This document shows positions 9,971 to 55,465 of a stretch of DNA of 64,000 bases, piece after piece (position 1 is the stretch's first letter; every line of letters begins with the position of its first letter). The notes beneath the pieces are model-generated. The model searched no databases. It saw nothing but the letters and a program-made list of their open reading frames with translations, and was not told the DNA's origin. Both the position numbers and the translations under genes were made by a program. This stretch comes from Shinisaurus crocodilurus (taxonomy: Eukaryota; Chordata; Lepidosauria; Squamata; Shinisauridae): assembly GCA_021292165.1 (NCBI GenBank), contig CM037880.1, positions 209,648,255 through 209,712,254 on the forward strand. Direction: 5' to 3'.

Positions 9971-10378
9971 TTTAAGAACATAGGAAGCTGACTTACACTG
10001 ACTGGGGTCACAAACACAATAAGCCATGGTGGCTTATAAGCCATGTTTGTTTCCAGGGTGGCTTGCCGTGTTGTCTGAACCTGGCTAGAGTGGCTCGTGC
10101 ATGGTTAACGAACCACGCTGCTGGGTTCAGACAACATAACAAGCCATTCTGAAACAAACATGGCTTATAAGTCACCATGGTTTATCCTATTGTGTGTGAA
10201 CCCAGTCACTGAATCAGACCATTGGTCCATCTAGCCCAGTATTGTAGATGCTGGCTGGCAGTGGCTCTAAAAAAGTTTCAGGAAGGGAATCTTTCCAACC
10301 CTACCTGGAGATGCCAGGGATTGTACCTGGGACTTTCTGCATGCAAAACATGTGCTCTATCACTGAGACACAGCCCCT
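9971..10378 (-). repeat. tRNA-derived SINE, minus strand, split by a hairpin MITE
   Basis: The 3' end AACATAGGAAGCTGACTTACACTGA (plus-strand view) is followed, after the insertion, by ATCAGACCATTGGTCCATCTAGC, then CTACCTGGAGATGCCAGGGATT, and ends at the tRNA-like head GTGCTCTATCACTGAGACA. Same family as 3352-4000. Confidence 0.8.
10002..10206. mobile_element. Hairpin MITE family C (TSD CACTGA)
   Basis: Long inverted arms: CACAATAAGCCATGGTGGCTT facing CATGGTTTATCCTATTGTGT, with an inner pair TTGTCTGAACC and GGGTTCAGACAAC. Flanked by CACTGA at 9996-10001 and 10207-10212 in the SINE. Related elements lie at 16395-16600 and 41912-43604. Confidence 0.75.
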
Positions 10379-20173: not shown

Positions 20174-20639
20174 TAGTGATGTTAACATTCCTGGGGGGGG
20201 GAGCCCTGCCTCGCCTGGCCTCTCCGTAGCAGGGTCCCCCACGACTCGATTCTCCGCAGCGCGGAGCAATTCTCCACGCCACTCGAGCCGCCCGCGCCTG
20301 CTGCGACGGGACCCTGCGCCTGCATGCCGGGACTCTGCGCTGCGTCTTTTCCGTAAAAACCAGGGCAACAGGGCTTAAAACGGCCGTTTTAAGCCCTGTT
20401 GCCCTGGTTTCTATGGAAAAGATACAGTGCGGGGTTCTGGCACGCCGGTGCAGGGTCCCGTCACATCACTTCCGGCCAGCCAGAAGTGACAGGACGGGAC
20501 CGTTGCGGCAGGCGCAGGCAACTCGTCGCAGAGAGTCGAGCGGGGCCGGGATCCGGTAAGGCCCGCAAGTCTTGGGCGGGCATGAGCAGGGCCGATTTCG
20601 GCCCGCTCTGCCCGCTCGAGGCAAGCGGTTACATCCCTA
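20174..20639. mobile_element. GC-rich hAT-like element, copy 3
   Basis: Ends TAGTGATGTTAAC and GCGGTTACATCCCTA form the terminal inverted repeat; flanks CAAAGAAG and CAAGAAGA are a degenerate possible duplication. Two inner palindromes: CAGGGCTTAAAACGGCC with GGCCGTTTTAAGCCCTG at 20366-20405, and TCACTTCCGGCC with GGCCAGCCAGAAGTGA at 20464-20488. Confidence 0.7.
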
Positions 20640-22508
20640 CAAGAAGAAGAGATGAAGCTGACTGGAAGAGCAATGAATAACTTTTTTAAGATAGCTCATT
20701 TTGTATTTGGAATTAGAATGACATTTTAACACCCCCCACCCGCAAAATAGAATGGGAGGGAGAGAGAAAATTATTCACTTTGGCAGCTAAATAAACCTCC
20801 CCCTCTGTCTCTGAAACAGAACCTTAAAAATATATGGACTGTTCCAATAAACTCATATTTGACTGGCAGCTATTTTACAGAACATCTCCTCAGCTAATTT
20901 AGGCACTGGCACGGTGTCAGCCTAAGTGATGAACAGGAATGCTGGCAGAAAATAGAATGTGCAGCTGTTAGTGTGAGGTCATTACGACTTTCCAGCCCAA
21001 TATATGTCTTTGCCTATGAAGATATTGGTTACAAAGGAGAATGGCAAAAAAATTGCTGGGTTGATTCATTCAGAGCTGCTGCTATCAGAAATCATAAAGG
21101 ATTAGACTGGACAACAAACCCTTCTGATCTAGTCCCTAATGCATGGAAGAGGCTCTGCCTGACCACCAAGTACACTGGCTGCAACTCTGACATCTCTAGA
21201 TGACCTCATGGGACCTTAGCATTTGAATACAGTTTTCCATGCAAGAAAACTTAGGCGAGGGGGAACTCACACTCTGATATATACCTGGGATGAACGAAGC
21301 TTCAAGGTGGAAACTGGAGAACCTTGAGGAGCTCGGGTTTTGCTGCTTCACAGATCTCTAATGCCAGGGGGATCTTTGTGCAAGATGGAGAATGTAGGCA
21401 AAAGGCAGTGCTGAAAGTAGATCACGAGGATGAAGAACTGAGCTGAGATTTGGGGTTCTGGAAGTAACAAGGGCAACAGGAAGTAGGCCAAGTAGAGTTG
21501 TATTAGACAACAATCCCGGAAGTCTAGTGCACAAGGCAAGTTCTTACTCAGGCAAACTCTGAATCCAGTTTCTAAGCATTTTCACAAGACAAAGCCTAGC
21601 ACAGTTCAGTAATGTGTGATCTGTCCATTTTCGTTTCTCCACCCACATCTGATTTTTTTAAAAAAATCTCACTTTCTTTCCATCCCATTTCTCAAGAAAT
21701 TTGTGAAGTTTGGTAAGTTCCTATAAAAAAACCGAACACAATTTCTCACCCATCCCTACAAGTTACAACCTGGAATACACTTGCCAATGATTGATGATGG
21801 CTTCAGCCATTCTACTATTGTCCTGTGCATTTGAATTCTGCCAGGTCATTCTGCTCACCATCCCAATCCCATCAGAACACTGTTTCCTTTGCCCTATTCC
21901 ACCACATATGACCTATGTTCCCATAATGGAGAAGTTGCACTTCCATTTGAACAGTCCATGTAAAAAGCACCTCTTATAATACGGATAAACTTTGTGTTAG
22001 AACACTCTTTGATATTTTCTGATGTACATGCTCTTTTAAATTATCTACCTGTTTCTTGGAAGTTAAAGCTTGGTCAATGTAAATTGATTTTCTGTGCCCA
22101 TTTGACAGCTAAAAGACCGACACTGGAAAGATAAAAGCTCATCTCTTATAACACAATTGATTGAAGACTTAACGATGCTTTCACTATTTGAGCGGATGAT
22201 ATGCAGACACCACTTTCGAATGGACATATATATATGGATATATGGTCTGCCTTTGTTGAAGCTTATGTATAATTGATACATCTGGATTCATGCTTTTATT
22301 TGGATATTTAAATATCAGCAATTGTTAATTTCAGGTTTTTTCCATGTTTCTGTTTTGTTTGTTTCTTTTATTTAGATTTTGTTTTGATTTGGTGAAATTC
22401 ACAATACAAAAATGAAAAAAATGTAAGAAGCAGCACCTCTAAATGATATTGAGCAGATGTTTAGAAAAGGATGCTCAATATTTGTGCTGGTTGTTTTGTG
22501 CAAAAAAA
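20640..22508. other. Mostly unrecognised
   Basis: AT-rich. 21655-21765 ends in TTTCTCACCCATCCCTAC and may be an eroded hAT-like end. I see no gene. Confidence 0.4.
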
Positions 22509-23747: not shown

Positions 23748-23899
23748 CAGGGCCGGATTAAGCTAGTAGGGGCTGTTGGAGCTGCAGCTCCAGGCCCCTA
23801 ACAGAAAATAGGCCCACAGTTATAGGGACACGCGGCGATTTCCCCCCCCTTCGGACGGCAGCAACGGCGCTTGCATTCGAGGATAACCAACAAGCCCCA

Positions 23900-24131
23900 T
23901 TCTCCTGCGGCGAGAGCAGAATTAGCGGAGCTCCAGCCGCGGGCCGACTCCGCTCCGCGGTCAGTGTGCGCATGCGCCCCACGACCTCCCACCCTCGAGC
24001 CTGCAGCTTTCGCGCTCCGTTCAACTATGTCCTCTCTAAGGCACTGTCTCTTCCTCCGGAAGCGGAAGCGGCGAGCCGAGGAGGCCGCGCGCGTGTGTGT
24101 GTGAGAGCGAGAGAGGAGCGCGTGAGAGAAG
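23900..24131 (+). promoter_or_regulatory. Captured CpG-island promoter (EIF2B5)
   Basis: Lies just upstream of the captured ATG. It holds a perfect NRF1-type palindrome TGCGCATGCGCC (23967-23978), tandem ETS-type CCGGAAGCGGAAGCGG (24056-24071) and a YY1-type AAGATGGCGGC across the start codon (24129-24139). These are standard parts of TATA-less housekeeping promoters. High retained CpG suggests recent capture or little methylation. Activity is not shown. Confidence 0.7.
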
Positions 24132-24287
24132 ATGGCGGCCCGCGGCGCCTCTGCGAAGCGTGGAGCCGGGTCCGGGGGCTCTCGGGGGTCCGAGCCCCCA
24201 GAGGAGCCGCCTCCACCGCTCCAGGCCGTGCTGGTCGCCGACAGCTTCAACCGCCGCTTCTTCCCCATTTCCAAGGACCGGCCCCGG
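24132..24287 (+). pseudogene. EIF2B5: Captured EIF2B5 first coding exon (eIF2B epsilon N-terminus)
   Basis: From ATG 24132 a 52-codon frame reads a Gly/Pro-rich start and then [14 protein letters not shown] (about residues 26-39) and RRFFPISKD (41-49). This is the start of the nucleotidyltransferase-like domain of eIF2B epsilon, the catalytic subunit of the translation initiation exchange factor. From memory the vertebrate protein has the same blocks with single substitutions (DSF-D/N-RR, KD-Q/R-PR). The exon ends in phase 0 at CGG with the donor GTGAGC (24288). No other EIF2B5 exon is seen in the window, and the piece sits wholly inside a hAT transposon, so this is a duplicated gene fragment, not the gene. 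The frame is undamaged. It could start a chimeric transcript. Confidence 0.85.
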
Positions 24288-24514
24288 GTGAGCGACGGGC
24301 AGGCGGCGGAGGGGGATGCGGGCAGCTGCCGCCGAAGGCCTCGGCCTCCTCCCTTCGTTCTCCGCCGGGGAGGTGCTTTCGGTCTTCGGCGAGCGTAGCG
24401 CTTCTGCAGAAATCGCACCCCGCAGATCAAGCAGGGGCCAGTTCTGGGCAGCATTTGAATTGAAATCCACTCCTTCCTTGCCAGCCACCTCTTCGTGCCT
24501 TGCCTCCAGTTAGG

Positions 24515-24633
24515 CTTGCCAGGATATTCTACATGTTTAGACATGAAAAAATCCTACAACTCCCAGCATGATAGCTGGGGCATCCCGGGAGATGTAGGAC
24601 TTTTTTCCTGTCTTAACATGCATTGCACCCTAA
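24515..24633. mobile_element. Harbinger-like hairpin MITE, family A (eroded ends)
   Basis: ACATGTTTAGACATGAAAAA and CTACAACTCCCAGCATGATA face GGAGATGTAGGACTTTTTTC and TCTTAACATGCATTGCACCC. Located in the intron-side cargo of the hAT element. Confidence 0.65.
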
Positions 24634-24654
24634 AAGGAGCAACTGGCAAAATTG

Positions 24655-24765
24655 ATTCATCATTACATTTCTATCCCACCATCCCCTCCCTCCTCCTTGC
24701 AAGGAGCCCAGAGCGGCTTATATGGCCCTCCTCTTCTTTGTTTTATCCTTGCAACAACCCTGTGT
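24655..24765 (-). repeat. Sauria-type SINE fragment
   Basis: CCTTGCAAGGAGCCCAGAGC, GCTTATATGGCCCTCC and TTATCCTTGCAACAACCCTG are the minus-strand 3' part of the SINE. Confidence 0.65.
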
Positions 24766-24799
24766 TTGTCAATATAACCCCAAGAGTCTCTGGTGCAGG

Positions 24800-25150
24800 A
24801 CTAATTTTGTGATGTGTGTTAAGGCTGAAGCGCTTGGGACTCTTCATTTAGAAAAAAAGAGGCAACTGGGCAGTGGGGCAGGGTGGGGATATGGCAGAGG
24901 TTTCTAAAGTTAATGTAAGATGTGGAGAAAGTAGATAAATTTTTTTCTCCCTCATAATACTAAAATGTGGGATCGTCCAAAGAAATGGATTGGTGGTAGA
25001 AAGTGCCTCTTCATACAATTCAGAATTCATAGAATTAACTGCCAGAAGATGTGATAGCCGCTAGGTTGGATAGCTTTAAATAGGCATTAGATAGCTTCAT
25101 AGAGGAGAGGTGTCTATTGATGACTATCACTCATGATGGCTACATGGAGC
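24800..25150 (+). repeat. CR1-type LINE 3' fragment
   Basis: GCGCTTGGGACTCTTCATTT gives the LGLF.LEKKR block, and GATATGGCAGAGG gives the GDMAE block of the CR1 C-terminus (compare LGMFSLQKRRLRGDMI in the copies at 46.5 and 59.7 kb). Stops follow, then a decayed 3' UTR. Confidence 0.6.
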
Positions 25151-25154
25151 ATCC

Positions 25155-25325
25155 AGGTTTATTTATTATTACCATCATATCATGCCTTTTTTACTTCTTG
25201 CAAGGAACCCAAGGCGACTTACATAGTCCTCCTCCTCCTCCTCCTCCTCCTCCTCCTCCTCCTCCTCCTCCTCCTCCTCCATTTTATCCTCACAACAACC
25301 CTGTGAGGTAGGTTAGGTTGAGAGT
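25155..25325 (-). repeat. Sauria-type SINE fragment with (CCT)n expansion
   Basis: TTGCAAGGAACCCAAGGCGA and ATTTTATCCTCACAACAACC plus CTGTGAGGTAGGTTAGG are the minus-strand SINE; the normally short TCC run has expanded to about 18 units (25227-25280). Confidence 0.75.
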
Positions 25326-25482
25326 CAGGGACTCTTTTATAATGTATTTCAGTTTACCCCACACAAAGCACTCACACACACAGAGCAGCCAGACAAAAGC
25401 AAAACACGCTTATAATTTGTAGGTATGTATAATGTATTCCAATTCTTATTTTTATAATGTATTCCAATTCTTATTTTTTAAA

Positions 25483-25952
25483 CCCACTTTTGCCATCGAA
25501 ATAAAATTCCATCCTCCATTTAATCATTTATTATTTATTTATTTATTTATTTATTGCATTTATACCCCGCTCTTCAGCCAGAAAAGGCTCTCAGAGCGGC
25601 TTACACAGATTAATAATAAGACATTCCCTGCCCTCAGGCTCACAATCTAAAAGACATGACACAAAAGGAAAAGGGATTGGGAGGGAGGAGGAAGAATGCC
25701 AAACTCAGGCACCAATATAATGTTTGGCATTCTTCCTCCTCCCCCCCAATCCCTTTTCCTTTTGTGTCACGTCTTTTAGATTGTGAGCCTGAGGGTAGGG
25801 AATGTCTTATTATTACCGGTAATCTGTGTAAACCGCTCTGAGAGCCTTTTCTGGCTGAAGAGCGGGGTATAAATGGAATAAATAAATAAATAAATCATTA
25901 ATTTCTACCCACTTTTGCCATCAAAATAACATTCCATCCTCCATTTAATCAC
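25483..25952. repeat. Large near-perfect inverted repeat between direct repeats
   Basis: Arms 25526-25704 and 25722-25895 are nearly identical reverse complements (TATACCCCGCTCTTCAGCCA facing TGGCTGAAGAGCGGGGTATA) around a 17-nt loop. Each arm is a LINE-type 3' end with ATTT repeats at the outer edge. A direct repeat of about 45 bp (CCACTTTTGCCATC through CATCCTCCATTTAATCA) lies just outside both arms. Confidence 0.85.
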
Positions 25953-26039
25953 TTGTTAACATTATAATTAATTTATAATAACTTTCCATTTAAGAAAAAA
26001 AAAAATCACCCCTATCAAGTGAAAAAAAATGACCCAGGT

Positions 26040-26155
26040 CCTTTTTTTTTACTTGATCCATTCGTTCTTTTTTTTTTTTAAACTATAGTCTGGTCCCCCA
26101 ACAGTCTGAGAGACAATGAACTGGCCCCCTGTTTAAAAAGTTTGAGGACCCCTGT
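26040..26155. repeat. hAT-type terminal fragment
   Basis: Ends AAAAAGTTTGAGGACCCCTG, preceded by GGTCCCCCAACAGTCTGAGA. The reverse complement, CAGGGGTCCTCAAAC, is a common vertebrate hAT end. The left end was not found. Confidence 0.5.
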
Positions 26156-26274
26156 TGTAATCCTTACATCAACCCTGTAAGGCAGGTCAATAGCATTCTC
26201 TCCATACAGCACATGGGGGGGGGCAGCTGAGTAAGAGCTCGGTTCGTGTACATTGTTGCCTAACAGTCTGCATA

Positions 26275-26410
26275 ATTCCCGAAGGGGTGGGCTGTGTTAG
26301 TCTATTGCAGCAAGAACAACAAGAGAGTCTTGTGGTACCCTAAAGACCAACACATTCATTCTGACATAAGCTTTCACGGACACTGCCCACTTCCATCAGG
26401 TTTTATTGAG
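26275..26410 (+). repeat. Dispersed reptile repeat, family not named
   Basis: The words GTGTTAGTCTATTGCAGCA, TCTTGTGGTACC and CATAAGCTTTCACGGACACTGCCCAC occur in a repeat I know from reptile genomes (SINE-like) but cannot name with certainty. Confidence 0.4.
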
Positions 26411-26593
26411 TTAACAAGCTTATTGTTTACAAAAAAGAAATATTTTCAATATGCTTCTGTTTTGGCACTTTAATGGTAATTAAAATATTTAATTTGTTTT
26501 AATATAAAATTGCGTCTTCATTTTATTTATTTCCATAAAAAGGCCCACCAAAATCCTCAGCACCAGGCCCATAATGTTCTTAATCCGGCCCTG

Positions 26594-26716
26594 TTGCTGT
26601 AAGGATAAAAATGGAGAGGAGAACCTTGTAAGCTACCTTGTACTCCTTGCAAGAGGAAAAAAGGTGGGATATAAATGTAATGTAATGTAGTAGTAGTAGT
26701 AGTAGTAGTAGTAGTA
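26594..26716 (+). repeat. Sauria-type SINE, 3' part, with (GTA)n
   Basis: Continues the SINE of 23605-23747 after the duplicated TTGCTGTA: AAGGATAAAAATGGAGAGGA, AGGTGGGATATAAATGTAATG, then a GTA microsatellite (26686-26716). Confidence 0.9.
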
Positions 26717-27171
26717 ATATGCAGACTGGTTCAAATAGATGGGGCAGAATGATTCAAAATACAGTTATGCTCAAATACCTGAGTTTTATTTAGTTTAGAC
26801 CTATTGATTTCAATGGTATAAAAAAGGAAGCTGAAATTCAAATGGTCCAGGAGGTTGTAAACGCCTCCTTGAGAGAGGGAGTGGTGCCGGCCTCTTTGAA
26901 AGAGGTGGTGATTAGGCCACTTCTGAAAAAGCCTAACCTTGACCAGGATGATGTTAATAACTACAGGCCAGTAGCTAATATCCCATTCCTGGCAAGGTGC
27001 TTGAGTAGGTGGTTGCTGGTCAACTCCAGGCACTCTTGGATGAAATGGACTATCTAGATCCATTTCAATCTGGCTTCAGGCCTGGTTTTGGAACAGAAAC
27101 TGCCTTGGTTGCCCCGTGGGATGACCTTTGCCAGGACAGGGGGAGTGCGACCCTGTTGATTCTCTTCGACC

Positions 27172-27449
27172 CAGCGGTGTTCACGTACCTGTGGAGGGGC
27201 TCGCCTCTCTGCCGCCGCGATTCTCCGCGCCGGCGCCCCCCGCCTTGTTCTTCCAAGTGGCGCGGAGCGTCCTTCGTGCCGCTCGAGCTGCCGCCGACTG
27301 GCGCACTAGTCCCGTCGCATCACTTCCGCTGCGCCGCAAAGAGGCAAGCCGCCGCTGGACGCAGGTAGGCCCGTGAGAGCCCCGCACGGGCATGAGCGGA
27401 GCCAATTTCGGCCCGCTACGCCCGTGCAAGGTGAACGGTTAGATCCCTA
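27172..27449. mobile_element. GC-rich hAT-like element, copy 4 (TSD CTT[C/G]GACC)
   Basis: Inserted exactly inside the L2 RT motif LDLS.AFDT. Flanks CTTCGACC (27164-27171) and CTTGGACC (27450-27457) match at 7 of 8. The right end GGTTAGATCCCTA and GGGCATGAGCGGAGCCAATT match copies 1 and 3. Confidence 0.8.
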
Positions 27450-28548
27450 CTTGGACCTCTCAGTGGCTTTCGATACCATCGACCATGGTATCCTTCTGGA
27501 TAGGTTGTCTGGGTTGGGAGTTGGCGGCACTGCGCTCCAGTGGTTCCAATCCTACTTGGGCGGCCGATTGCAGAAGGTGGTGCTGGGGGATTACTGCACT
27601 GTCCTTTGGCAGTTATGCCATGGGGTGCCACAGGGCTCCCCCATGCTGTTTAACATCTACATGAAACCACTGGGAGAGGTTATCCGGAGGTGTGGGCTGA
27701 GATGTCATCAATATGCAGATGACACCCAGCTCTGTCTCTCCTTTTCATCTAATCCAGGTGAGGCAGTGGCTGTTCTGAATCAGTGCCTGGGCACGGTAAT
27801 GGACTGGATGAGGGCTAAAAAACTGAGACCCAATTCAGATAAGATGGAGGTACTGTTAGTGGGTGGTTTGTCTGCCCGGCTAAGTGATATTCATCCAGTT
27901 CTGGATGGGGTTGCACTCCCCCTGAAGGATCAGGTTCGTAGTTTGGGGGTGCTCTTGGATCCACAACTGTCACTTGAGGCACAGGTGAACTCAGTGTCAC
28001 GGAGCACCTTTTATCAGCTTAGGCTGATATACCAACTACGTCCTTATCTGGACAGAGATAGCCTAGCTACAGTTATCCATGCTCTGGTAACCTCTTGTTT
28101 GGATTGCTGCAATACGTTATACATGGGGCTGCCTTTGAAAACGGTCCGGAAACTTCAGCTGGTCCAAAATAGGGCAGCAAGATTATTAACGGGGAATGGT
28201 CGACGTGAACATATTATGCCAGTGCTTTCTCACTGGCTGCCAGTCTGTTTCTGGGCCCAATTCAAAGTGCCGGTACTAACATTCAATGCCCTAAATGGCT
28301 TGGGGCCAGGGTATCTGAAGGATCATCTCTTCCCATATGTACCTGCCCAGACACTAAGATCTTCTTCAGCAGTCCTTCTCCGAGAGCCCCTGCCAAAGGA
28401 AGTGAGGCAGGTGGCTACCAGGAGGAGGGCCTTTTCTGCTGTGGCACCCCGGTTGTGGAATGAGCTCCCCAAAGACGCTCTCCTGGCGCCTACATTGTAC
28501 TCTTTTTGGCACCTGGTGAAGACCTTTCTATTCTCCCAGGAATTTTAA
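27450..28548 (+). pseudogene. L2 LINE reverse transcriptase, interrupted
   Basis: Long open frame of an L2-clade polyprotein that copies element RNA at the target site. In order: LDLSVAFDTIDHGILLDRL, GVPQGS.PMLFNIYMKPLGE (three residues fewer than usual at VLS), the catalytic YADDTQL (about 27712-27732), WMRAKKLRPN, LGVLLDPQLSLEAQV, LPLKTVRKLQLVQNRAARLL, FKVPVLTFNALNGLGPGYL and RRAFSAVAPRLWNELP. The frame appears to start at 27373 only because the hAT insert happens to be open. The endonuclease and upstream RT are lost or frameshifted, so the copy is dead, though this part is unbroken. Confidence 0.9.
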
Positions 28549-28745
28549 CCATTTAATCTTGCAGTTGTTTTTAACTCTGTTATTGTAATTTGAACTGCTG
28601 CTGCTAGCTTTGCTGTTTGTTTTTTAATCTGTGGTTTAAAATTTTATTTTTATATTATATTGTATTTTATGGTTTTAACTGTTGTAAACTGCCCAGAGAG
28701 CTTAGGCTATTGGGTGGTATAAAAATGTATTAAATAAATAAATAA

Positions 28746-29876
28746 ATAAATTCTTTACTGGGTTATGGATTGAGCTGATAGAAAGTCAACTGTTATCCAA
28801 ATTCGTTTTTTTAGCTTCAGCACCACAACTCCACTGCAACCTGATCACCCACGTGTCCTGCTTCCTTTAGTGTTTTGTGTCCCCCCACCCCACCACTTCA
28901 CCCCTCTGCTTTGGTGTTGATTAATATGGTCAGGCATTGTAGGCAACACATTACACTTAATGCATTTTTCCCTATGGGGGACTAGAATCTTATCCTTAAG
29001 GTGATATTGAAACAACTATAACCAGTACATCCTCCTTTTTGCTGGAGTGGATTTTCTTTTGGCTATTTTAATTCTCCCCACCCCTCTGCCACTTTGTTTT
29101 GTTTTCCATTTAGTAGTCCTGAGATTTCTATATGAATTTACACAAGGCAGGGCAGGATAGGAACTAGCAGCGCTGAAGCAAAGTACACTGTGTAGAGAAA
29201 GAGCAGAGAGTGTGTGATGGGAATTATAGTAAGGACCAAGGAGTGTACCAGAACCAGGAGTCCAGAAAACATGTTGGCTTCAAAACCTCATCATTCATCA
29301 AGTTTCTAAGTGAAACCTATGAAATCTATGAAAAAGGAATGCTGTGGCTGACACATTCCAGGGCCCAAGTTTCCCGAAGAAATAACTGCAATTCTGTATT
29401 GATTTTCTTCTTAACCAGACTTGTTTTTTATTGATCTTTTCCTTAACCAGACTTCATGCCTCAAGCTTACCTTGCTAATTACTTCAAATACCTGGAACCA
29501 AGTCTTACAACTTGCTTTCATGCATTCCATTTAAGCCACCTCACTTAAGATAGATCCTATTTTATTGACTTCCTTCAGAATTAGGCTGCCTGGTTCAAGG
29601 CTGCCTTACTAATTAGATTGAATATCTGATACTAATTATTTTCCCTTGTTTCAGGGCATTTCATTTAAGACAGATTACAATTTAGAAGCACATCCTGCTG
29701 TGCCTGAAATAATCAGGATTGGAAATCTTGTAAGCGAAAGCACCTCGCATGGATGGTCCTACTTAGCCTACTGACATGTCAAACCTGGGGGAGGTTCAAA
29801 AGCTGACTATGAAAAGGTGAGAGGGGTGGGTCTGCTCCTTCAAGCCTTTATTTAAACATTCCAGCCATTCTTTAAC
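28746..29876. other. No recognised feature
   Basis: AT-rich sequence without gene or clear repeat. Confidence 0.5.
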
Positions 29877-29992
29877 CCAGTGTTCTCCAACCTTGGGTCC
29901 CCACTCCAGATGTTTTTGGCCAAAACTCCCAGCATGCTGGGAGTTGTAGGCCAAAAACATCTGGAGTGGGGACCCAAAGTTGGAGAACACTG
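29877..29992. mobile_element. hAT-like hairpin MITE family E
   Basis: CCAGTGTTCTCCAACCTTGG faces AAAGTTGGAGAACACTG; the centre is the palindrome ACTCCCAGCATGCTGGGAGT. No matching target duplication. Confidence 0.8.
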
Positions 29993-30329
29993 CACCAGTT
30001 CTAGGCTCTCGGGACTGAGTGAAAAAGTAGTTCACATCGATGGTTTGTTAGCTGCTCTTTGCCCAAATGCTCTTCCATATATTTTTTTTAATTAATAAAA
30101 CATAGTAGTGCTCAAATGACCCCCCCCCATACATTAACTGAATTAAAGCTTGACATTTGGTTTATTTTTTTAATTTATTGATTAATACTTATATACTGCA
30201 TAAAATAATAAAATCTCTAAGCCGTTAACATATTTCCCTTCCCCTGGCCACATGCAACTGTGGGCAGGGAGAATTTTGTGTGGGGGGGGGAAAGGAGAGT
30301 GGGAGACCACTGTGGGGTGATCTCACCCT

Positions 30330-30990
30330 CCAATCAGGTTTCAGTTGGGTGGTGCGTTAAGGGCCGATATTAGGCCTGAACACCCCCACCCACTGCCTCT
30401 TTCTTTTTGCAGCGCCCTCCCTCCCTCCCTGTTCTCAGTGTGGGCTTTGCTGACCACCATTTCCAGGGGCCGAGTAGGAATTTTGGCTCATTGTCCTGAT
30501 TGGCTGGGGGCAACGTGTGTGTTTTGCCTACTCTACACTGTGTTTCAGGGTTGGGTGTTTTTTTTTATTTTGGGGGTTGGTGATGTGGTCCAATCTGGTC
30601 ACATTTGGCTAGTAAGTGTGGGAATAGGCAGTGGCGTAGGGTTCGGTGACCATCCGATGTCAATGTCAGGTGGCTGGTGAGACCCAAGGCTCCCCGTTTA
30701 CAGAGTTTTGCGGCTTAGTGGTGGGAGATAAGGATTGCCAGTGAGGCTGACTTTCCTCACACGAATTGGTGTTTTGCAGCATCGTGATATGGCGACTGTG
30801 AGAAAGCCTCCCAGCACCCACAAGGGTGTATTACTGTGGGGTGGCGAAGTGCAGCGGGATACCCGGGATACCTCACTGGCCAATGGCAGGTTTTTAGTTA
30901 GTACCCACACTTTCTCCTTTCGAAGATCTTGATTATTAATAAATGTGGCCCTAATTATTTTTTATACCATATATTTGTGTCTCGCCTCTT
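30330..30990 (+). repeat. LTR-like repeat, copy 1
   Basis: Aligns over about 650 bp with 44200-44960. Shared words: AATTTTGGCTCA/CATTTTGGCTCA, GCCTACTCTACACTGTGTTT, AGGTTCGGTGA-type, TAGTACCC.CACT and ATTAATAAATGTGGCCCTAATT, the last holding an AATAAA signal. AATAAA near the 3' end followed by a TGTGTCTCGCCTC-type segment resembles an LTR R-U5 region. No coding part is attached, so it would be a solo LTR. Class uncertain. Confidence 0.5.
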
Positions 30991-31109
30991 CTTTTCCCCT
31001 TTATGCATACAAAAAAAAAATAAACATCACTGTTTAAAATACACTATTAAAATACACCATTTAAACTACAATAACAATAAAAAGCAGTACAAAGAAAAGT
31101 AAGATGGAG

Positions 31110-32053
31110 CAGCATATGATTAATTTAACTGCAATTCTTTACAAGCCAGAGAAAGCTTGGGTGAACAAATGCATCATCAGGAGGCATTTAAAACATTATC
31201 TCATTTTCTGCCTCCCGAAGTGCATGCAGGATGGGCGCCACCACCAGATAATGGGCACCACCACCGAGAAGGCCCACTTCCGAGATATTATGTGGCAGCA
31301 TTCTGTTGGTTGTGGAACAACCAGCAAGCCCTCTTCTGAAGATCTTAACGGTAGGCTGTATATATATACAGGAAGGTGATCTGTAGGCATCCTGGTCCCA
31401 CGTTGTTTTGGGCTTTGTATATCAACAACATAACCTGGAACATGCCTTGGTAGCTAAGGTAGCCAGTGCAATTCTTTCAACACAGTTGTAATGTGAACAT
31501 GGCTGGATGACCCACTGAGCACCCTAGCTGATGCATTCTGCACAAGCTGCAGCTTCCAAACCAAGTACAAGGGAAGCCCCACACAGAGTGCATTATAGTA
31601 ATCTAGTTGTGAGGTTACCAGTGCATGAACCACAGTGGCTAGGCTATCACTACTATCCAGGAATGGGCATAGTTGTTGCACAACCAATGTTGATAATGGA
31701 CACTCCAAGCCACTGGGGTCACCTGGGCCTTCAGTGACAAGGATAGATCCAGGAACACCCCCAAAATGACCTGTGCCTTCAGAGAGAATGCAACCCCATG
31801 CAGAACAGGTAAACAACCCAATTCCCAGTCCTGGGAGGGAACCACCCATGCTTAAGGTTTCTGTCTGATCAGGATTCAGTTTCTTTTCTTTCTTAGTTTT
31901 TTTCAATTTATTGGCCCTCATCCAGCCCACAACTGCATCCAGACACTGGTTCAGAACAGGCATGGCCTCCCCTGACTCAGATGCTACGTAGAAATAGAGC
32001 TGGGTGTCATCAGCATTCTGATTACTAAAGATTACTGTGCTGCTGATAAGCAA
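31110..32053 (-). pseudogene. L2-type LINE, decayed RT C-terminus
   Basis: The minus strand keeps ADDTQLYFYVASESGEAMPVL (start of the catalytic centre lost at the Y), WMRANKLKK, SLATVVHALVTSQLDYYNAL, KLQLVQNASARVL and TTVLKELHWLP. Downstream, in other frames, is a diverged WAFSVV.PI block (31196-31300). The copy is 5'-truncated and several frameshifts separate the blocks. Older than the L2 copies at 13.4 and 27.5 kb. Confidence 0.8.
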
Positions 32054-32903
32054 AGTATTTTTTTACAACTAATTTTCTACTACATCAAAATCACTAGTTT
32101 GATCAACAAATCAAAAGGGATATTTGGCAGAGTCCTAATTCTAAACTCTGGCTAACATCTGGCAACCAGTTTTCTTTCTTTATATTATGTGTGAAGTCCT
32201 GATTAGCATAGGGCAGGTTTCCTTAAATACCTGGATAAGCTTCCAAGCTTACATTACTAATTAGTCATATATCAGTTACTGTCAAACTTCCCTAAGAAAT
32301 TTCCAACTTTCTCAGCAGCACTAACCCTTACATTGGCAAGGTCCTATTAAATTATGTACCGTGGGACCAAAAGCTCCCCCTCCGCTGCACCCTGTCAGAA
32401 TCTCTATGTTCAAGCTGTCGTCATCACTATCTTCCATGACCAGCTCTCTAAGAAACTGGAAGCTATTAATCCAATGAGCCTGCAGTCTGTAGCTTGGGGA
32501 TAATGAAACTTTGAAGAAAATAGACCCAATCAGATGTGCTGTGTGTGATCATCAACAATGCACAAACAACAGGAAAGGCCAGAAGCGGTTATAAAGATTA
32601 CTGTGCTGCTGAAAAGAAAAATGCTAATACTGTGAGAGCCGTTCTCAAGATTAATCTGACATTAATTAGTATGTATGTGTGTTTCTCAGTCAATTGCCCA
32701 TTAACTTTGATGGTGGATGGAGCAGACGCCATACTTTACTAGCCCATATTCTGCTCCATAGACTAAGCCAGGGGTGGGGCAACTGGTTGCCCTTCTGGAG
32801 GGCCACAAGTTGCCCACATCTGCACTAGGCAATGGTTCCTGCTGCTTTTTCTTTCCATTTGTGATAGTCAGGGATAAAAACTTCTCGCCCCTCTCACAAA
32901 AGG
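32054..32903. other. No recognised feature
   Basis: AT-rich; nothing seen. Confidence 0.5.
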
Positions 32904-33240
32904 GAACAATGGGCAGAATCCAATGGGGCAATTACAGTCCTGCTTATTCTTTTCTGCACCGCCAATTCCCTTCCACAAGTGGTGGTTCTCACTAATTCTG
33001 TTGCGCAAGCAGGACCCACCAGTTACACAAGGAAGATTTCGTGCTTCCTAGGGGAAGATCCCTTATGCGAGCTCCACCGACCTGAATCCTTCCAGAAACA
33101 AGCATTTCTGCTCATTTTGGGTTGTCCTGGAAGCACTACATCACTGTTGCACAAGTGGTGAGGCCACTCTCACAATAGAATTGGTGAGGCATAAGGTGAT
33201 TGGTGGGGGTGGAAGCACCCCATTGGATTCTGCCCACTGG
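32904..33240. mobile_element. MITE-like hairpin family D
   Basis: Inverted ends GGGCAGAATCCAATGGGGC and CACCCCATTGGATTCTGCCC. The inside matches 15490-15870. Non-coding. Confidence 0.7.
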
Positions 33241-33521
33241 TGGCCTTGAGCTGCAATGGAGCAAATCAACTTCCTAGGACCTAAAGCAACATCCAAAGAA
33301 CAGCAAGGGGAACAGAACCATGCAGTTCCCTGATTGCCATTTTAAATCCCTTACCCATTTAAGCATAACAGAACTGAGGGAAGCTGCTGGTATAGTATAC
33401 CCTGTGGGGTGGGGTGGGGGACAGCGGCTGGGTTCAGGTAACGGAAAGACGGTGGTTTCTTCTTGTGCAACTTGGAAATTGTCCTGGCTTGGCTTGACAC
33501 CCAGGGGAAGAGGCCAATAGA
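33241..33521. other. No recognised feature
   Basis: Flank of the large hAT insertion; continues at 37550. I could not assign it. Confidence 0.5.
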
Positions 33522-33899
33522 CAGGCCTGGTGCAAGGCAATTTGGTGCCCTAGGCAAGATCAGATATTTAGCGCCCCCCCTTCCCACTTGAGCAGAGGCG
33601 TAGCGTGGGGGGTGCAGGGGGGGCCGGCCGCACCAGGCGCAACATCTGGGGGGGCGCGCTCGCAGCTCTCTGCCCCAGCTCTTCCTCCTCCTGCTCCCCC
33701 CCCGAGAGGCGGCTGCCCTTGGAGAAAGGGGCGGATCAGCCGCCCCCCCCTCGCTGCTTGCTGCCGCCGCCGGCGCCGCGCCTGCCAGGGTCGTGCGCCT
33801 CGGAGAGCGCGCGTGCGGGGCGGGAGGCGAGGAAGGAGGCGCCGGCCGGTGCGTCGCGGGCCGGGCAGGCGGAGGGCAGCCGCGCGCGGCGCGTGGGCC

Positions 33900-33940
33900 A
33901 TGGAGCGCTGAAGGGGCGTGTGGCGCTGGTGACCGGCGCC
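33900..33940 (+). pseudogene. DHRS11: Captured start of a short-chain dehydrogenase (DHRS11-like)
   Basis: ATG at 33900 begins MER, then one base is missing from what would be a Trp codon, and the next frame reads KGRVALVTGAS. This is the N-terminal beta strand and the first half of the TGxxxGxG nucleotide-binding loop of classical SDR oxidoreductases. The MERW...ALVTGAS arrangement is that of DHRS11 as I remember it. Similarity stops right after TGAS (about 33940), where the sequence changes to another GC-rich region, so the loop is cut. The 300 bp upstream are CpG-rich and probably its promoter/5' UTR. Other SDR genes remain possible. Confidence 0.55.
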
Positions 33941-34184
33941 TCTAAGCCGCTTCCCTTTTCCCCTGCGCCGTTTTGCTCCACCTGCGGAAGCTCCGCAGCA
34001 CCTCCTCGCGAGGAGAAGGCCAGGAGCAGGGCGGGCCCGTCCGGGCTCAAGGCGGAGCCGGCTCCGGGAAGTGGCGGTTGCGGCCACACCGCCTCCTTTG
34101 AGGGCAGCGGCAGAAGCGATAGCGCAGCGCAGCGCAGCACGTTCTCCTTCCCCTGCACATGTCCGCCCGAGAAGCAGGAGGAGG

Positions 34185-34354
34185 ATGGCTGAAGCTGGGG
34201 ACGCTGCTGCTGCCGCCACCCCGACGCCGCTTGACCGGAGCAGGCGAGCTGTGGGGGAGCTGGGCGGCGGCACTCAGGCCTCGCACAGGCTCCTGGCCTA
34301 TAGCGATGCGTTCAACAACGCGTCGCGTTGTTGTCCATCATCGCCACCGTCATG
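34185..34354 (+). pseudogene. TMEM175: Captured TMEM175-like first coding exon
   Basis: ATG 34185 starts an Ala-rich 42-codon stretch ending in RLLAYSDA, then, after a 17-nt insertion (34311-34327), LLSIIATVM and a consensus splice donor GTGAGT at 34355. RLLAYSD fits the RxxxFSD signature of the first helix of TMEM175, the lysosomal K+/H+ channel (vertebrate proteins continue SDALLSIIATVM). The 17-nt insertion breaks the frame and creates the fold-back CAACAACGC/GCGTTGTTG. Later exons are absent and the piece is inside a transposon, so it is a dead gene fragment. An ETS-like CCGGGAAGTGGCGG lies upstream at about 34064. Confidence 0.75.
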
Positions 34355-34880
34355 GTGAGTCGGAGGCTGCTGTGGGCCGCCGGGAGGGTCGCCGCCGCCA
34401 CCCTCTTCCTTCTGTGGGCGGCGGAGGCCCCTGTGCCGTTGGCACCTGCGTGGCTGCAGGCAGAAGTTCAACGGGGGAGGGATTTCCTCATTACTGCATG
34501 CCAGGCCGGGGTGGGTGGGTCACCCTTTGCTGCTTTATGCATAGAAAGCTTTTTCCAGGCATGTGGGAGTGATAAAAGCTACACCTGTTGAACTTCCTGT
34601 CTTATGGCGCTGCAGAAGGTATAGAACCAGTGTCCTTTTGAAATAATGTACTATGTGACACCTTGAATCTTTCTGCCTGAGGTTTTCAGATGCCCCCCTC
34701 TCCCCTGTCCGTACATCCCCTTTTACAAATAGGGTGTCCTTAAAAGACAGGGTCCTTTGAAGACGCACACAGAGCATATGGAAATTAGCATATGCAAATT
34801 TGTGCATTTGTTGTTGTAGGCCTGAGCCCAGAGGTACCTAGCACTGCCCCTGGTGACAACAGGGGTGACTAGGAAACTTG
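34355..34880. other. Captured intron-like sequence
   Basis: Follows the TMEM175-like donor. GCAGGCAGAAGTTCAAC (34457) and GTTGAACTTCCTGTC (34588) form weak inverted arms and may mark a small MITE. An ATT microsatellite follows at 34883-34914. Confidence 0.35.
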
Positions 34881-34915
<35 letters not shown>

Positions 34916-35156
34916 AGAAATCGCAGCCAGGGTGCTGCTCTTCTACATCAAAAGAGCATGGTATCTGGGTTACAAAGATATAACCACAACTTCCCCCCTT
35001 TAAAAGTAAACACCATATGGCGGAAAAGAACGTGGGCCACCAGCTCCCCAGTCGACTTTGCCTTCTATACAACCACATCACAGTAATCATCTTTGTTATA
35101 CACTGCATTATACAAACAATACATGTGCTTAGGGGGTAAGGGTTTCTTTAACTAAT

Positions 35157-35249
35157 CTAGTGGAAGAGACTCGAGTGCTAAAATCCATGGGTTAGGGGGC
35201 GCAAATTACTTGCCTTGCCCCGGGTGCTGACAACCCACGCTACGCCACT
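35157..35249. repeat. Internal copy of the inner hAT right terminus
   Basis: CTAGTGGAAGAGACTCGAGTG to CTACGCCACTG is repeated, with few changes (one is an extra ACTCG unit), at 36110-36209, where it forms the true element end. Confidence 0.9.
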
Positions 35250-36109
35250 GCGCGTAAGTGGCAACTTTGCTGCCGCCCCGCCCGGACTGCTTTGCATGGG
35301 GCTGGCCCGGCCCGGCCCCCTGCCTGGATCGGGTCCCCCAGCAAACTTTGTGTCGCTCGCCGCGCAGGTGCCTCGGGCCGGACGCGGGCAGGAGGGGAAG
35401 GCACCCCGCCAGGCGGCGGCGGCGGCGAAGGAGGCGACGCTGCCCGGGCTGGGCGCATTTCAGCGGCGCGGCGCAGGCGCGGCAGAGAGTCCGGCGGGTG
35501 GACGGGCTGCTGCCTGCCTCGCCTCGCCCTGGCAGGCAGGAGTGCCTCGACGCCCGGCTCGGCTCAGCAGAGGGCAGATTGATCGGCCCATCTGCATAAT
35601 CGATAGGGCAGCGAAGAGGGTGGCCGGGAAATGGCTGCGATGCCCGCCCGCCCGCCGCCGCCGCCGCCGCCGCTCCCCTCCGCCGGCCTTCTCGCCACGC
35701 TGCGCGGGGAGCGAGCCTCTGCCCCGGAGGAGGCGCCCCGGCACGCTGCCTGCCAACATGTCACTGGCGCCTGGAGCCCCCCCCCCGGCACCCTCCTTCT
35801 GCCTAGGTAGGGGGCACCCGGAGAGTTGCAAACAGGAGCCCCCCCCCCCTCGGCCCACTTGCCTTGTTGGCTTAGTGCTGAGTCGTCCTGTGCTTATCTA
35901 AATATTTGCAAAAGCGCCTTTTTTTTTTTTTTAATTGCTCGGAGCAAACCGAGTCGTGTCCTTTGGGGGGGGGGAGAAAATGTCCGGGGGTTGCGGCGAT
36001 TGGTGCCAAGTGCGTCTTTCGCCCAGACCTTCGCCGTTGGGTCCTGCGAAGCGCCCGTGGAAGCCGCCTTCCAGCTCGCCTTGGCCACCGGGTCTTGCCT
36101 TTGGGCCCA
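35250..36109. other. GC-rich captured segment, gene not recognised
   Basis: CpG-island-like DNA with CCG and GGC runs, lying between the two copies of the hAT right terminus. An ATG context CCAACATGTC (35758) opens a short frame (MSLAPGAPPP...) ending near CTAG and GTAGGG, which would suit a first exon with a donor. A second frame starts at 35633 (MAAMPARPPPPP). I do not recognise either. The 228-codon frame at 35215-35901 is most likely GC bias. Confidence 0.4.
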
Positions 36110-36209
36110 TCTAGTGGAAGAGACTCGACTCGAGTGCTAAAATCCACGGGTTAGGGGACGCAAATTACTTGCCTTGCCCCGGGTGCTGACAACCCACGCT
36201 ACGCCACTG
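36110..36209. repeat. Inner hAT right terminus
   Basis: True right end, followed directly by the CACTTGAG duplication. Near-identical to 35157-35249. Confidence 0.9.
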
Positions 36210-36217
36210 CACTTGAG

Positions 36218-36800
36218 CCCTCCCTCCCTCCAGCCCTATGCCCATTATGAAATAAATTTCCCTCCCTGGGAACTGCCGAGCCACATAGAAAAACTTTGTG
36301 GACTTTGAGACTTTTCCTTTGTGTTCACGAGGAAAGCAAAGAGGCAACATCAGCCCAGCTATGCCAGGAACTCCCAAGGGCCTTCTCCCACTCCATATAT
36401 ATGTAAAAGCCTGTCTCCTCCTGCAGGCAGCACAAGGGATATGAAAAAAGGATGTGAGAGAGGTGTGGTGGCGCTACCTGTGAGGAATAGAGACAAAAGG
36501 GCGTCTTGCAGCCTGTGCTACCTCGCAGGGTGGAGGTGCAGAGACACCGGTTTGACTCGTACACCTTCTGGGTTGCAGGGGGGGGGGATGCATGTAGTAG
36601 AAACATAGCAAAGAGAGAGCCCGTGGATCATCTGGTTCAAATTTAGGAGGGGATTTACGAAACTTGCTACTTCCCCTCCTCTATCACTTTGTTGCAATAT
36701 TTCTTTATCAGAATAATGTATATTATCCTGTCTTTCCCTTTACCAGCCTAGTGCTCAAGGCAGACAACAATATTCAAAGTACAGTAAAGAAAACATCAAC
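36218..36800. other. Outer hAT body, not recognised
   Basis: No transposase motifs; short frames only. A G run lies at 36580-36588. Confidence 0.4.
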
Positions 36801-36805
36801 AGCTC

Positions 36806-37010
36806 AGGGCACAATCCTAAACTCGCTGAGGCAGAAAAAAGCCCTGCAACTCCCAGCATTCACCAGCCAGCATGGCTGGCTGTTGGAACGCTGGGAGTTG
36901 TGGGGCTTTTTTCTACCTCAACGTGCATAGGATTGCACATGGCTGGCTGGGGAATGCTGGGAGTTGTAGGATTCCCCCCCCCTCCAAACATGCATAGGAT
37001 TGCATCCTAA
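36806..37010. mobile_element. Harbinger-like MITE family A, one and a half copies
   Basis: CAGGGCACAATCCTAAACTC faces ACGTGCATAGGATTGCAC. A further right half, GGAATGCTGGGAGTTGTAGG then CATGCATAGGATTGCATCC, follows at 36931-37010. The cores hold CAACTCCCAGCATT in both directions. Confidence 0.7.
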
Positions 37011-37549
37011 AACCATTTAAAACCAAAACACAGAAACAGCATGGTAAATAATTAAAACATTGGAGCCCCAGCTAGCTTAAAATACCTTTCCCTCCCTCCC
37101 TGGTTGCTGGAAATAACTGCTTTCAGGGGACCTTGAGCTGAGGAACCTGAGGCTCGCGCGAGGGAGGGAAGGCGAAGGAGGTGTTTGCAGGTGCATCCTT
37201 GAGAGGGAAGGCGAAGGAGGTGCATCCTTCCAGCCGCCCACCAGCCTCCCATCATTGGCCCCTGCCCGCCTCCCCTCCTCCAGTCTGTAGCCTTCTCTGC
37301 CTCTTTTGATGCTGGTTGTGAGGAGGAGCCTGCCTGCTGCTGTTCCTGGTAACGAGCTGGAGGAGAGAGAGGGAGGGGTGCGCTTCTTTCGCCTTCCCTT
37401 CCCCGCCACAGGACATGATTGGTAAAACAAACTTGGTAAAATACGTGATGTATTTTTTTTCCCCCAAGGCATTTCTGGCGCCTCCTTTAGCCCAGCGCCC
37501 TAGGCAGCCGCCTAGTTGGCCTAATGGTAGCACCGGCCCTGCCAATAGA

Positions 37550-39718: not shown

Positions 39719-40418
39719 TGGGGCAGTATCCAACTGTGTCATTCTGCTAGCTCAAATGACATTGCGTTAGTAGAAACTAGGTTCTGAACCATGCACAAGA
39801 GGAGAAGTTACATTTGCACGAGTGTGATTGTGCAAGCAGTTGCACAACCCATTCTGCAGGCACTTGTGCATTATGCATGCACAACCGGTTGCACAATGGG
39901 CTGTGCAACTAGTTGCACATTATGCTTGTGCAACCTGTTGTGCAACTGGTTTTGCATTACACTTGCCCAACTGGTCACACAATGGGTTGTACAAGTGTAA
40001 TGCAGAAATGCTTGTGCAATGGAATGATTCGGCAGTAGTGAGGGACGCATTCACCTCGCGCGGGCGTAGCGGGCCAAAATCAGTCCTGCTCACGTCTGTG
40101 CGGGGCTCGCGCAGGCTTACCTGGCTCCAACGGTGGCTTGCCTCTCTGCGGCGAGCCGCCTGCACCGCCTGTGCTGGTCCCATCGCGTCACTTCCATCGC
40201 GGCAGAAGTGATGGACGGGACCAGCGAGCCAGTCGTGGCCAGCTCGAACGGCGCAGAGAAAGCTCCGCGCCGCTCAGAAGATCGAGCCAGGGGGGCCGCC
40301 ACCATGGAGAGGCGAGCCCCCCCAACAACTCAGGTAAGACCCCCAACAACTCGGGTATTCGGCAGAGTTCCGCTAACCCTATTTGAGTTTACAGAATGAC
40401 ACTGTTGGATACTGCCCA
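39719..40418. mobile_element. Hairpin element family D relative with TGCACAA repeats
   Basis: Inverted ends GGGGCAGTATCCAACTGTGT and ACACTGTTGGATACTGCCC, with CATTCTG facing CAGAATG. The interior 39800-40020 holds over a dozen TTGCACAA/TTGTGCAA-like words in alternating orientation. A GC-rich hAT is nested at 40036-40357. Confidence 0.7.
40036..40357. mobile_element. GC-rich hAT-like element, copy 5 (TSD TTCGGCAG)
   Basis: Flanked by perfect TTCGGCAG at 40028-40035 and 40358-40365. Contains ATTCACCTCGCGCGGGCGTA, TCCCATCGCGTCACTTCC facing GAAGTGATGGACGGGA, and GCCGCTCAGAAGATCGAG. Confidence 0.85.
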
Positions 40419-40482: not shown

Positions 40483-40672
40483 TAACACAGGAAGCTGCCT
40501 AATGGGGAAGACCACTGGGCCATCTATCTCAATACTGTCTACACTGACTGGCAGTGGCCCACTGGGTTTTCAGATGGGGCCTTTCCCAGCCCAGCCTGGA
40601 GAAGCCAGGGATTAATCGAAGACCCTCTTCATGCAAAGCATGTGCTCTACCACTGAGCTACAGCTTTTCTCC
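40483..40672 (-). repeat. tRNA-derived SINE
   Basis: Plus-strand view: CAGGAAGCTGCCTAATGGGG at the 3' end, CACTGACTGGCAGTGGCCCA, CCTGGAGAAGCCAGGGATTA and the tRNA-like head CATGTGCTCTACCACTGAGC. Confidence 0.85.
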
Positions 40673-45124: not shown

Positions 45125-45455
45125 AGGGGTGGACGATTTCACCTCGTGCGGCGTAGCGGGCTGAAATTGGCCCCGCTAAGGCCCATGCGAGGCTCGCGGG
45201 GACTTACCTTGTCCCCGGGGCGGCTCGCCACTCCGCGCCGCTCAATCCGCCAGCGCCGGCCGCGCTGGTCCCGTCGCGTCACTTCCAGCCTGCCGGAAGT
45301 GACGCGACGGGACCAGTGTGGCCGGCGCCGGCGGTTCGAGCGGCGCGGAGAGCAGCTCCGCGCCGCTCAGAAGATCGAGGCGGGGGGGCGCCGCCGCGGA
45401 GAGGCGAGCCGGCGGAGAGGCAGGCCCCCCAACAGGTTCATGGACACCACTATAA
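45125..45455. mobile_element. GC-rich hAT-like element, copy 6
   Basis: Starts TAGGGGTGGACGATTTCACC; right end TTCATGGACACCACTA. The inner palindrome GTCCCGTCGCGTCACTTCC facing GGAAGTGACGCGACGGGAC is perfect, the best kept of the family. The target duplication is unclear. Confidence 0.75.
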
Positions 45456-49189: not shown

Positions 49190-49227
49190 TGGTACCCCCG
49201 AGTTTATGTCTCCCTCCCCTGTTGGAT

Positions 49228-50256
49228 TCAGTTTAAAGCCCTCCTGATTAAGTTCCTCATGCTGTGTCCAAACACATTCTTCCCAGTCCTTGTGAGGTGC
49301 AACCTATCCTTTGCCAGCAGTCCATCTTCCAGGAAGTGTAGCCCGTGGTCCCAGAATCCAAATCCCTCACGTCGGCTCCACCTTCGTAGCCAGTCATTCA
49401 CTCGGAGTATTTTTCTTTCCCTTTCTATGCCTCTTCCAAGTACTGGAAGGATGGATGAGAAAACTATCTGGGCCCCGAAGTTCTTGAGTTCCCTTCCCAG
49501 CTCTTCAAAGTCTGCCGTGATTTCTTTGTAACTCTGCTTGGCAGTATCATTTGTACCCACGTGGAAGAGAAGAAAGGGGTATGTGTCGGTGGGCTGCATG
49601 AGCCTCGGCAGCTGCTCTGTCACATCCTTAATCCGTGCCCCAGGGAGACAGCACACCTGGCGAGTCCATGGGTCTTCGCGACATACTTTGGCTTCGATCC
49701 CCCGCAGGAGGGAGTCTCCCACTACGAGTACTCTTCTCTTCCTCTTTCTGTAGGCCTTGGTTTGATTGCCTCCACTTGACTGACCCTCAGCCTCTTGCTC
49801 GGTGTCACGTTGGGTGCCCGGTAATCCGTCCTCTGCAGGCTGTCCTCTGCTCTCGTCCTCAAGTACATGGAAGCGGTTCCATAGCTCCACTGCTTCCACA
49901 GGCGCAGAGTGTCTTGTAGTTCTTCTGCTCCTAACAGTCACCCTTTTCCAGGGAGTTCCCCCTGCGTTATTTTCCCTTGCCTCTGCAGTCTCCGACTCCG
50001 CCTCATCCTGCAGTTGCCCTTCTGGCTCCTGTACTGTGCTTTGGTGCTATAGATCCACCGTTCTGTCTAAGAACTCCTCGCTTTCTCTTATGCTCCTGAG
50101 GGTTGACACTTGCTGCTCCAGTCCTCTGACCTTTTCTTCCAACAGCGTGACCAGCTTGCACTTGTTGCATGTGTAGGCCATGTTGATCTCTGGCAGGAAA
50201 ACAAACATTGCACACCCCTTGCAGGTCACCACCACTGCTGAGTCCTTTCCTTCCAT
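49228..50256 (-). pseudogene. CR1 copy A ORF1 (zinc-binding N-terminus plus GDSL esterase)
   Basis: N-terminal part 50047-50256: CxxC at residues 12/15 and 30/33 (TCKGC, TCNKC) suggests a zinc ribbon; LLEEKVRGLEQQVSTL suggests a coiled coil. A TAG at 50047-50049 then interrupts the frame. The rest (49228-49941) has a basic KRKRR patch and an SGNH/GDSL hydrolase: GDS (block I), GTND (block III) and DRLH (block V), all catalytic positions kept. CR1 ORF1 proteins are known to bind RNA and carry such an esterase. The start at 50256 is supported by the same MxGKDS start in copy B at 55170. Confidence 0.9.
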
Positions 50257-54847: not shown

Positions 54848-55280
54848 TAAAACTTTACTTTTTGTTCCTGACTCCCAGCTGAGCAGAAGCACGGGAGAGA
54901 GGCTCCAGCTGTTTTTGGGGCTGTAATAGGCAAGCAGGTTCCCAGAGAGAGAGCAAACAGAGCGAGCAAGCAGGAGTTTGGCAGTGGAGTTCGGCAGGGG
55001 AGGTCAAGGGGGAGGTCCCTAAGAAATTTTCTAGATTGTTTGTTTTGTTCTAGTAACACGTCCTTATAGACCAGGGGGACTCTGTTGTTAACAGTCAGGG
55101 AAGGCAGGGCAAGGCACCGGCCATTCCAGTACGAAAAGAAAGGCAGAAGCATAAAGGGAATAGAGAACTATGGACGGAAAGGACTCTCCAGTGGTGGTGA
55201 CCTGCAATGTGTGTGCAATGTTTGCTTTCCTGTCCTGCCTGAGATCAACATGGCCTACAAGTGCAAGCTGGTCACGCTGT

Positions 55281-55436: not shown

Positions 55437-55465
55437 AAGGTCAGAGGACTGGAGTAGCAAGTGTC

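Follow-up and report, generated by a model that had tools for sequence, protein, structure and literature searches.

The 64,000-nt window analyzed here—the whole stretch C5:209648255-209712254 of the 2.19-Gb genome of Shinisaurus crocodilurus, where C-numbers designate contigs of this genome and L-numbers individual genomic places—contains two transposons, element 1 and element 2b, that carry the 5' ends of EIF2B5 and, side by side, of DHRS11 and TMEM175 (Table 1). Members of the hAT superfamily have short terminal inverted repeats (TIRs) that start with CAG and finish with CTG; both carriers display such ends together with 8-bp target-site duplications (TSDs). Copy searches across the genome indicate that the first exon and presumptive promoter of at least three ordinary genes have been copied to dozens of sites by these small mobile elements. 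A window-wide scan for 8-bp duplications adjoining inverted ends (exact 8-bp TSD, CAG/CTG ends, a TIR of at least 11/14 and a length of up to 5 kb) returned elements 1, 2 and 2b as its top three matches, recovering the element boundaries given in the first-pass annotation of this DNA. Three TSD-plus-TIR pairs were present in the real window, vs. one in total over 200 order-1 Markov simulations built per 1-kb block under the same filter. The annotation had also described both carriers as hAT elements, which is true of elements 1 and 2b; the second carrier, however, is the nested 2b. The outer hAT (element 2) was rejected as a carrier because the cargo sits inside 2b.

Element 1 carries the upstream region, first exon and beginning of the first intron of EIF2B5. 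Protein homology ends at the GT donor although the longer query continues, and the piece is therefore genomic. The parent locus was found on C3 (L027) with a human EIF2B5 sequence as the query, giving ordered matches over 18 kb to residue 482; exon 1 in the window and in the parent share 99.5% identity across 184 bp. In all genome-wide searches, the best 40 candidates per query were scored. For element 1, queried with its left 1753 bp, these were drawn from 6963 candidates and yielded 75 matching stretches, and 20 of the 40 places, hand-picked and with the window among them, were fetched. Both TIRs were present in 14 of these (13 with an 8/8 TSD and one with 7/8), two of which are the same site on two contigs. 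The other six are the parent locus, four copies lodged in a third TIR element and L026, a longer form of element 1 (3884 bp, TSD ACCGGGAC, 8/8) with ~2.5 kb of EIF2B5; the window piece lacks ~1.2 kb found in both L026 and the parent, a difference to be read against the 80-120% length range used to define Pack-TIRs. Among the 19 fetched copies other than the parent, exon 1 and the start of intron 1 diverge from the parent by 1.1-2.1% in every case, with a mean pairwise divergence of 1.26%. The YY1-like motif is retained in 17 of the 19 and the exact splice donor in 18; in seven, a common insertion of 5 bp displaces the last codons, and our script found no start codon in one copy (L014) of the 19 scanned. 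L010 (C442) and the window hold copies of element 1 that are 99% identical and have the same TSD; the pair is an alternative haplotype or an assembly duplicate. Element 1 also contains a long inverted repeat (25530-25902, 89.6% over 384 columns).

Eight of the best 40 element-1 places start at element-1 position 356 or 357, and the four of these that were fetched (L023, L024, L025 and L028) bear the EIF2B5 cargo within a different TIR element, with ends CAGGGGTCGGCAACC and CAGGGGTCTGCAACC. This third element has taken over the EIF2B5 cargo of element 1 and joins it to another GC-rich piece, one that by eye resembles the family of miniature inverted-repeat transposable elements (MITEs) listed in Table 1. 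Its superfamily is not settled, since the flanking repeats measure 7 bp in L023 and 6 bp in L025, L024 has none and L028 yielded no right end.

The cargo of element 2b begins with the upstream region of DHRS11 and the start of its first exon. The window piece, of 15 codons, gave an E value of 0.077 when an X was placed at the frameshift and no DHRS11 match when searched without it. Its identity was settled by a related 1810-bp element with the same ends as 2b, an 8/8 TSD and no TMEM175 (L046), in which the whole exon 1 is present (E 1.7e-14)—44 codons, then a GT donor. All of the best 40 places (293 candidates) match the DHRS11 query at 96-100%; among six examined, four show both ends with 8/8 TSDs, and the 44 codons are kept in all six. 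That L046 has the entire DHRS11 exon without TMEM175 suggests serial capture by one TIR family, with DHRS11 taken first and TMEM175 second.

From the window alone, the TMEM175 match was weak (E 0.025, with two frames joined), and a single-frame search of the window piece gave no match to this gene. The parent locus L048, on C2, settled the identity: it has no hAT ends and combines an intact exon 1 (peptide E 8e-6) with a strong match to a later exon (E 8e-12) and with weaker ones that follow in order, the captured piece measuring 1168 bp vs. 1173 bp in the parent. Within the best 40 of 5208 candidates for element 2b, 27 places span base 1-4 to at least base 1548, thereby defining the base unit, and nine match at 378-1658 plus 1-72, hence without the DHRS11 part; the rest are one place beginning at 272, L047 (835-1659), L048 and L046. 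Judged by match extent, 37 of the best 40 contain the TMEM175 exon-1 stretch as transposon cargo, whereas an internal TMEM175 exon with its flanks (211 bp) had a single candidate and a single match genome-wide, namely itself. Distinct 8/8 TSDs flank all 12 full-length loci checked (L034-L045); a shorter form, L049, has an 8/8 TSD as well, and L050 showed one end only within the fetched stretch. The 17-bp extra stretch of exon 1, or a variant of it, is kept with the donor in the 12 displayed copies (13 were scanned for exon 1) and is absent from L048, and therefore arose after capture. At 34311-34333 this stretch forms an inverted repeat with 9-bp arms (CAACAACGCGTCGCGTTGTTG) and is perhaps a template-switch scar.

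In the window, 2b continues from the base unit into an 858-bp CpG-rich stretch and then a second right end, and we infer that two Pack-hATs were fused through use of the outer end. The 858-bp stretch is itself multicopy: all of the best 40 places (76 candidates, window included) align to 856-858 of its 858 bases at 92-100%.

These observations bear directly on whether the window could simply hold real genes interrupted by hATs rather than transposed copies. The EIF2B5 first exon is still open and nearly identical to its parent, as this alternative would predict; the EIF2B5 and TMEM175 parents with their later exons, however, lie on C3 and C2, and the cargo is multicopy with distinct TSDs, so that a real gene locus is refuted for these two genes and retains next to no probability. 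Retrocopies or segmental duplications flanked by hATs afterwards would be a very improbable source as well: the pieces are unspliced, with upstream sequence, donor and intron, which excludes spliced-mRNA retrocopies, and at many unrelated sites TIRs and TSDs fall where the pieces end. We found no point in favor of such an origin, and it is refuted for the complete copies examined. Instead, we consider it likely (with a probability of roughly 0.83) that these are multicopy Pack-hATs that acquired host-gene 5' ends—EIF2B5 in one family; DHRS11, then TMEM175, in the other—and were moved by a hAT transposase acting in trans. This interpretation is based on the TIRs, the distinct TSDs, the unspliced structure, cargo present in many copies and the parent loci found for EIF2B5 and TMEM175. 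As in Pack-TIRs defined by Tan et al. (PMC8277862), 100-5000 bp of sequence not derived from transposable elements lies between the ends of one TIR element, parent identity exceeds the 90% used to recognize them (97% for EIF2B5 and 95.5% for TMEM175) and, as in the multicopy class, the same cargo of elements 1 and 2b recurs at sites with different TSDs. The suggestion in the first-pass annotation of a Pack-hAT system that spreads gene starts and donor sites is borne out, as upstream regions and donors have been multiplied at distinct TSD-flanked sites.

Mechanistically, short non-autonomous hATs would pick up stretches of host-gene 5' ends as genomic DNA, probably when repair or replication switches templates at short or SINE-like (short interspersed element) homology at the joints. 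Transposase supplied in trans would then mobilize them, and each cassette of upstream region, ATG and donor could in this way spread to dozens of sites; the preference for 5' ends may stem from open CpG islands at capture or from better amplification of their carriers. By eye, the right EIF2B5 joint has ~38 bp of SINE-like homology between intron and hAT, and the TMEM175 joints have about 1-3 bp, which fits template switching in gap repair or replication as modeled in the main text of Tan et al. 2021 (PMC8277862). The same authors ask that a Pack-TIR parent be free of transposable elements in the surrounding 100 bp, a point on which the SINE-like sequence at the right EIF2B5 joint bears.

Several points weigh against the Pack-hAT interpretation or its generality. 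The element-1 TIR pair was missing from the initial stretch in six of the 20 places fetched for element 1 (in one of them, a longer stretch revealed it), and of the TMEM175 piece L047 has just the intron part, without exon 1. The DHRS11 parent was not told apart from the copies in the best 40 of 293 candidates and could be among them, and the multicopy CpG-rich cargo at 35251-36108 has no assigned gene. Pfam scans found no transposase domain inside the elements, and hAT transposase was not sought genome-wide. Finally, the 5'-end bias is drawn from three genes in two TIR families that were found through their GC-richness, and the control for copies of internal exons covers TMEM175 alone of the three.

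Table 1. Transposon, cargo and repeat features of the window (positions in the window unless a place number is given).
Feature	Position	Strand	Basis or remark
Element 1, non-autonomous hAT, 2846 bp	23748..26593	+	TIR CAGGGCCGGATTAAG, 14/14; TSD TTGCTGTA
EIF2B5 5' end: upstream region, exon 1, intron 1 start	23911..25231	+	97% to the C3 parent locus over element-1 164-1484
YY1-like motif AAGATGGCGGC spanning the ATG	24129..24139	+	sole occurrence in the window
EIF2B5 exon 1 coding part, open frame, GT donor at 24288	24132..24287	+	E 6e-16 to human eIF2B epsilon
Element 2, outer hAT, hosts the nested carrier	33522..37541	+	TSD CCAATAGA; TIR 11/14
Element 2b, composite hAT nested in element 2	33593..36209	+	TSD CACTTGAG; TIR 13/14
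Element 2b base unit, 1658 bp, multicopy Pack-hAT	33593..35250	+	copy boundaries genome-wide
DHRS11 upstream region and exon 1 start, one base lost, cut within the exon	33665..33942	+	left edge deduced from copies without DHRS11
TMEM175 5' end: upstream region, exon 1, intron 1 start	33942..35109	+	95.5% to parent L048
TMEM175 exon 1, 17-bp extra stretch absent in the parent, donor ATG/GTGAGT kept	34185..34354	+	
hAT right end of the base unit	35110..35250	+	98.6% to the L046 right end over 139 bp
Further CpG-rich cargo, 858 bp, no gene assigned, multicopy	35251..36108	+	copy search
Second copy of the same hAT right end	36109..36209	+	93% to 35155-35250
Third TIR element carrying EIF2B5 cargo	L023 673-3228; L024 682-4407; L025 690-2966; L028 from 682	strand used for alignment	
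GC-rich hAT-like MITE family, six copies	2483-3069, 3455-3667, 20190-20640, 27171-27449, 40038-40357, 45125-45455		

The six-copy MITE family of the window may represent an older captured promoter. All six copies have a splice-donor-like GGTARG motif at about the same position and several an ETS/CRE-like palindrome; two copies are flanked by 8/8 duplications and one by a 7/8 duplication, two of these being judged by eye. The GC-rich insert at 27171-27449 was considered as host DNA and rejected, as it belongs to this family. Two tRNA-like matches on the minus strand (10306-10377 and 40601-40667) are probably SINE heads.

The first-pass annotation had further held that the only recognizable host fragments in the window are 5' gene ends. 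All three identified cargos are indeed 5' ends, each with its ATG and, in the full-exon forms, a donor; the 858-bp cargo, to which no gene is assigned, keeps this claim from covering the window as a whole. The CpG observed/expected ratio is 0.85-0.98 in the three cargo islands vs. 0.16-0.21 in four cargo-free stretches. This difference is in line with a bias that arises at amplification: hATs might capture any sequence, and those carrying a CpG island would remain open and free of methylation in the germ line and multiply more—an explanation with a real chance of being correct, if somewhat below even. The MITE family, which has no recognized gene, likewise keeps a ratio of 0.88-1.13 (five of six copies measured), and, according to the main text of PMC8277862, animal multicopy Pack-TIRs tend to high GC and single-copy ones do not, which would favor a filter at amplification. 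On the other hand, our sample consists of multicopy Pack-hATs and includes no single-copy ones, and, with a divergence of only 1-2%, the EIF2B5 copies should show little CpG decay either way.

The bias could also lie in ascertainment, if CpG-island first exons are conspicuous and internal exons within hATs exist but pass unrecognized. Three genes were involved, and the first reading was done by eye on GC-rich stretches. Six-frame Pfam scans of the window (leaving out 26594-28550, 46701-49999 and 54981-59499) found no host domain above the cut-off, giving sub-threshold matches only, the best to a reverse transcriptase; this blank is weak evidence, because the same scans missed all three known first exons. 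A domain scan should nonetheless favor internal exons, the one internal TMEM175 exon searched is single-copy and every identified cargo is a 5' end with an ATG, making ascertainment a rather unlikely cause. More speculatively, and with somewhat less confidence than we place in the amplification filter, promoter dispersal may be ongoing, hAT TIR families continuing to gain CpG-island first exons with the island itself driving amplification of an element that is unmethylated, open and perhaps transcribed in the germ line. The 5'-end bias would then, just as tentatively, be a filter for cargo that keeps the transposon accessible.

Pack-type elements had been taken to be a plant phenomenon, a view that does not stand, as animal Pack-hATs are in print. 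The main text of Tan et al. reports 370 Pack-TIRs in 100 animal genomes, 208 of them hAT, with four multicopy cases (three from frogs and one from alligator), e.g., Pack-hAT-N8_XT of the western clawed frog, which carries a 291-bp piece of the CAPSL 5' UTR in three copies. The elements described here resemble Pack-hAT-N8_XT in having hAT ends around non-transposon DNA, distinct TSDs, a parent elsewhere and short homology at the joints, and share the preference of animal multicopy Pack-TIRs for high-GC cargo. Unlike the three-copy frog case, each identified cargo fills all or nearly all of the best 40 places and, unlike the cases set out in that main text, one TIR family captured two genes serially and the EIF2B5 cargo passed to a third element. 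Pack-MULEs and other plant Pack-TYPE elements (PMC8903248) are likewise TIR elements of the non-autonomous kind in which pieces of genes are carried along and multiplied—the Pack-MULEs of rice favoring GC-rich ones (as cited in PMC8277862)—but they belong to plants and mostly to other superfamilies, with Pack-hATs also listed in maize. Gene capture by bat Helitrons (PMC4778049) provides another vertebrate DNA transposon with gene pieces.

Helitrons, as rolling-circle elements, have neither TIRs nor TSDs, unlike the TIR- and 8-bp TSD-bearing elements of Shinisaurus. Literature searches limited to open-licence papers showed no squamate case, and the words lizard, anole, Anolis and reptile are absent from the main text of PMC8277862, which names alligator (its figures and supplements lie outside this statement). 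The apparent novelty is one of extent and arrangement: there are several high-copy families, genes were captured serially, cargo passed on to a third element and all three identified cargos are 5' ends.

For genome annotation, these results carry a warning, as transposon copies, not genes, account in this genome for most scored exon-1 matches of EIF2B5, DHRS11 and TMEM175. With two parents identified and a divergence of just 1-2% in the EIF2B5 copies, methylation and RNA data can put to the test both how capture works and whether a CpG island aids multiplication. If the pattern is general, this would be a vertebrate genome with many young mobile gene starts, each with an ATG and a donor, from which new first exons and chimeric genes could directly arise. 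And if promoter dispersal proves true, cassettes of promoter, ATG and donor could become the first exons of other genes through splicing.

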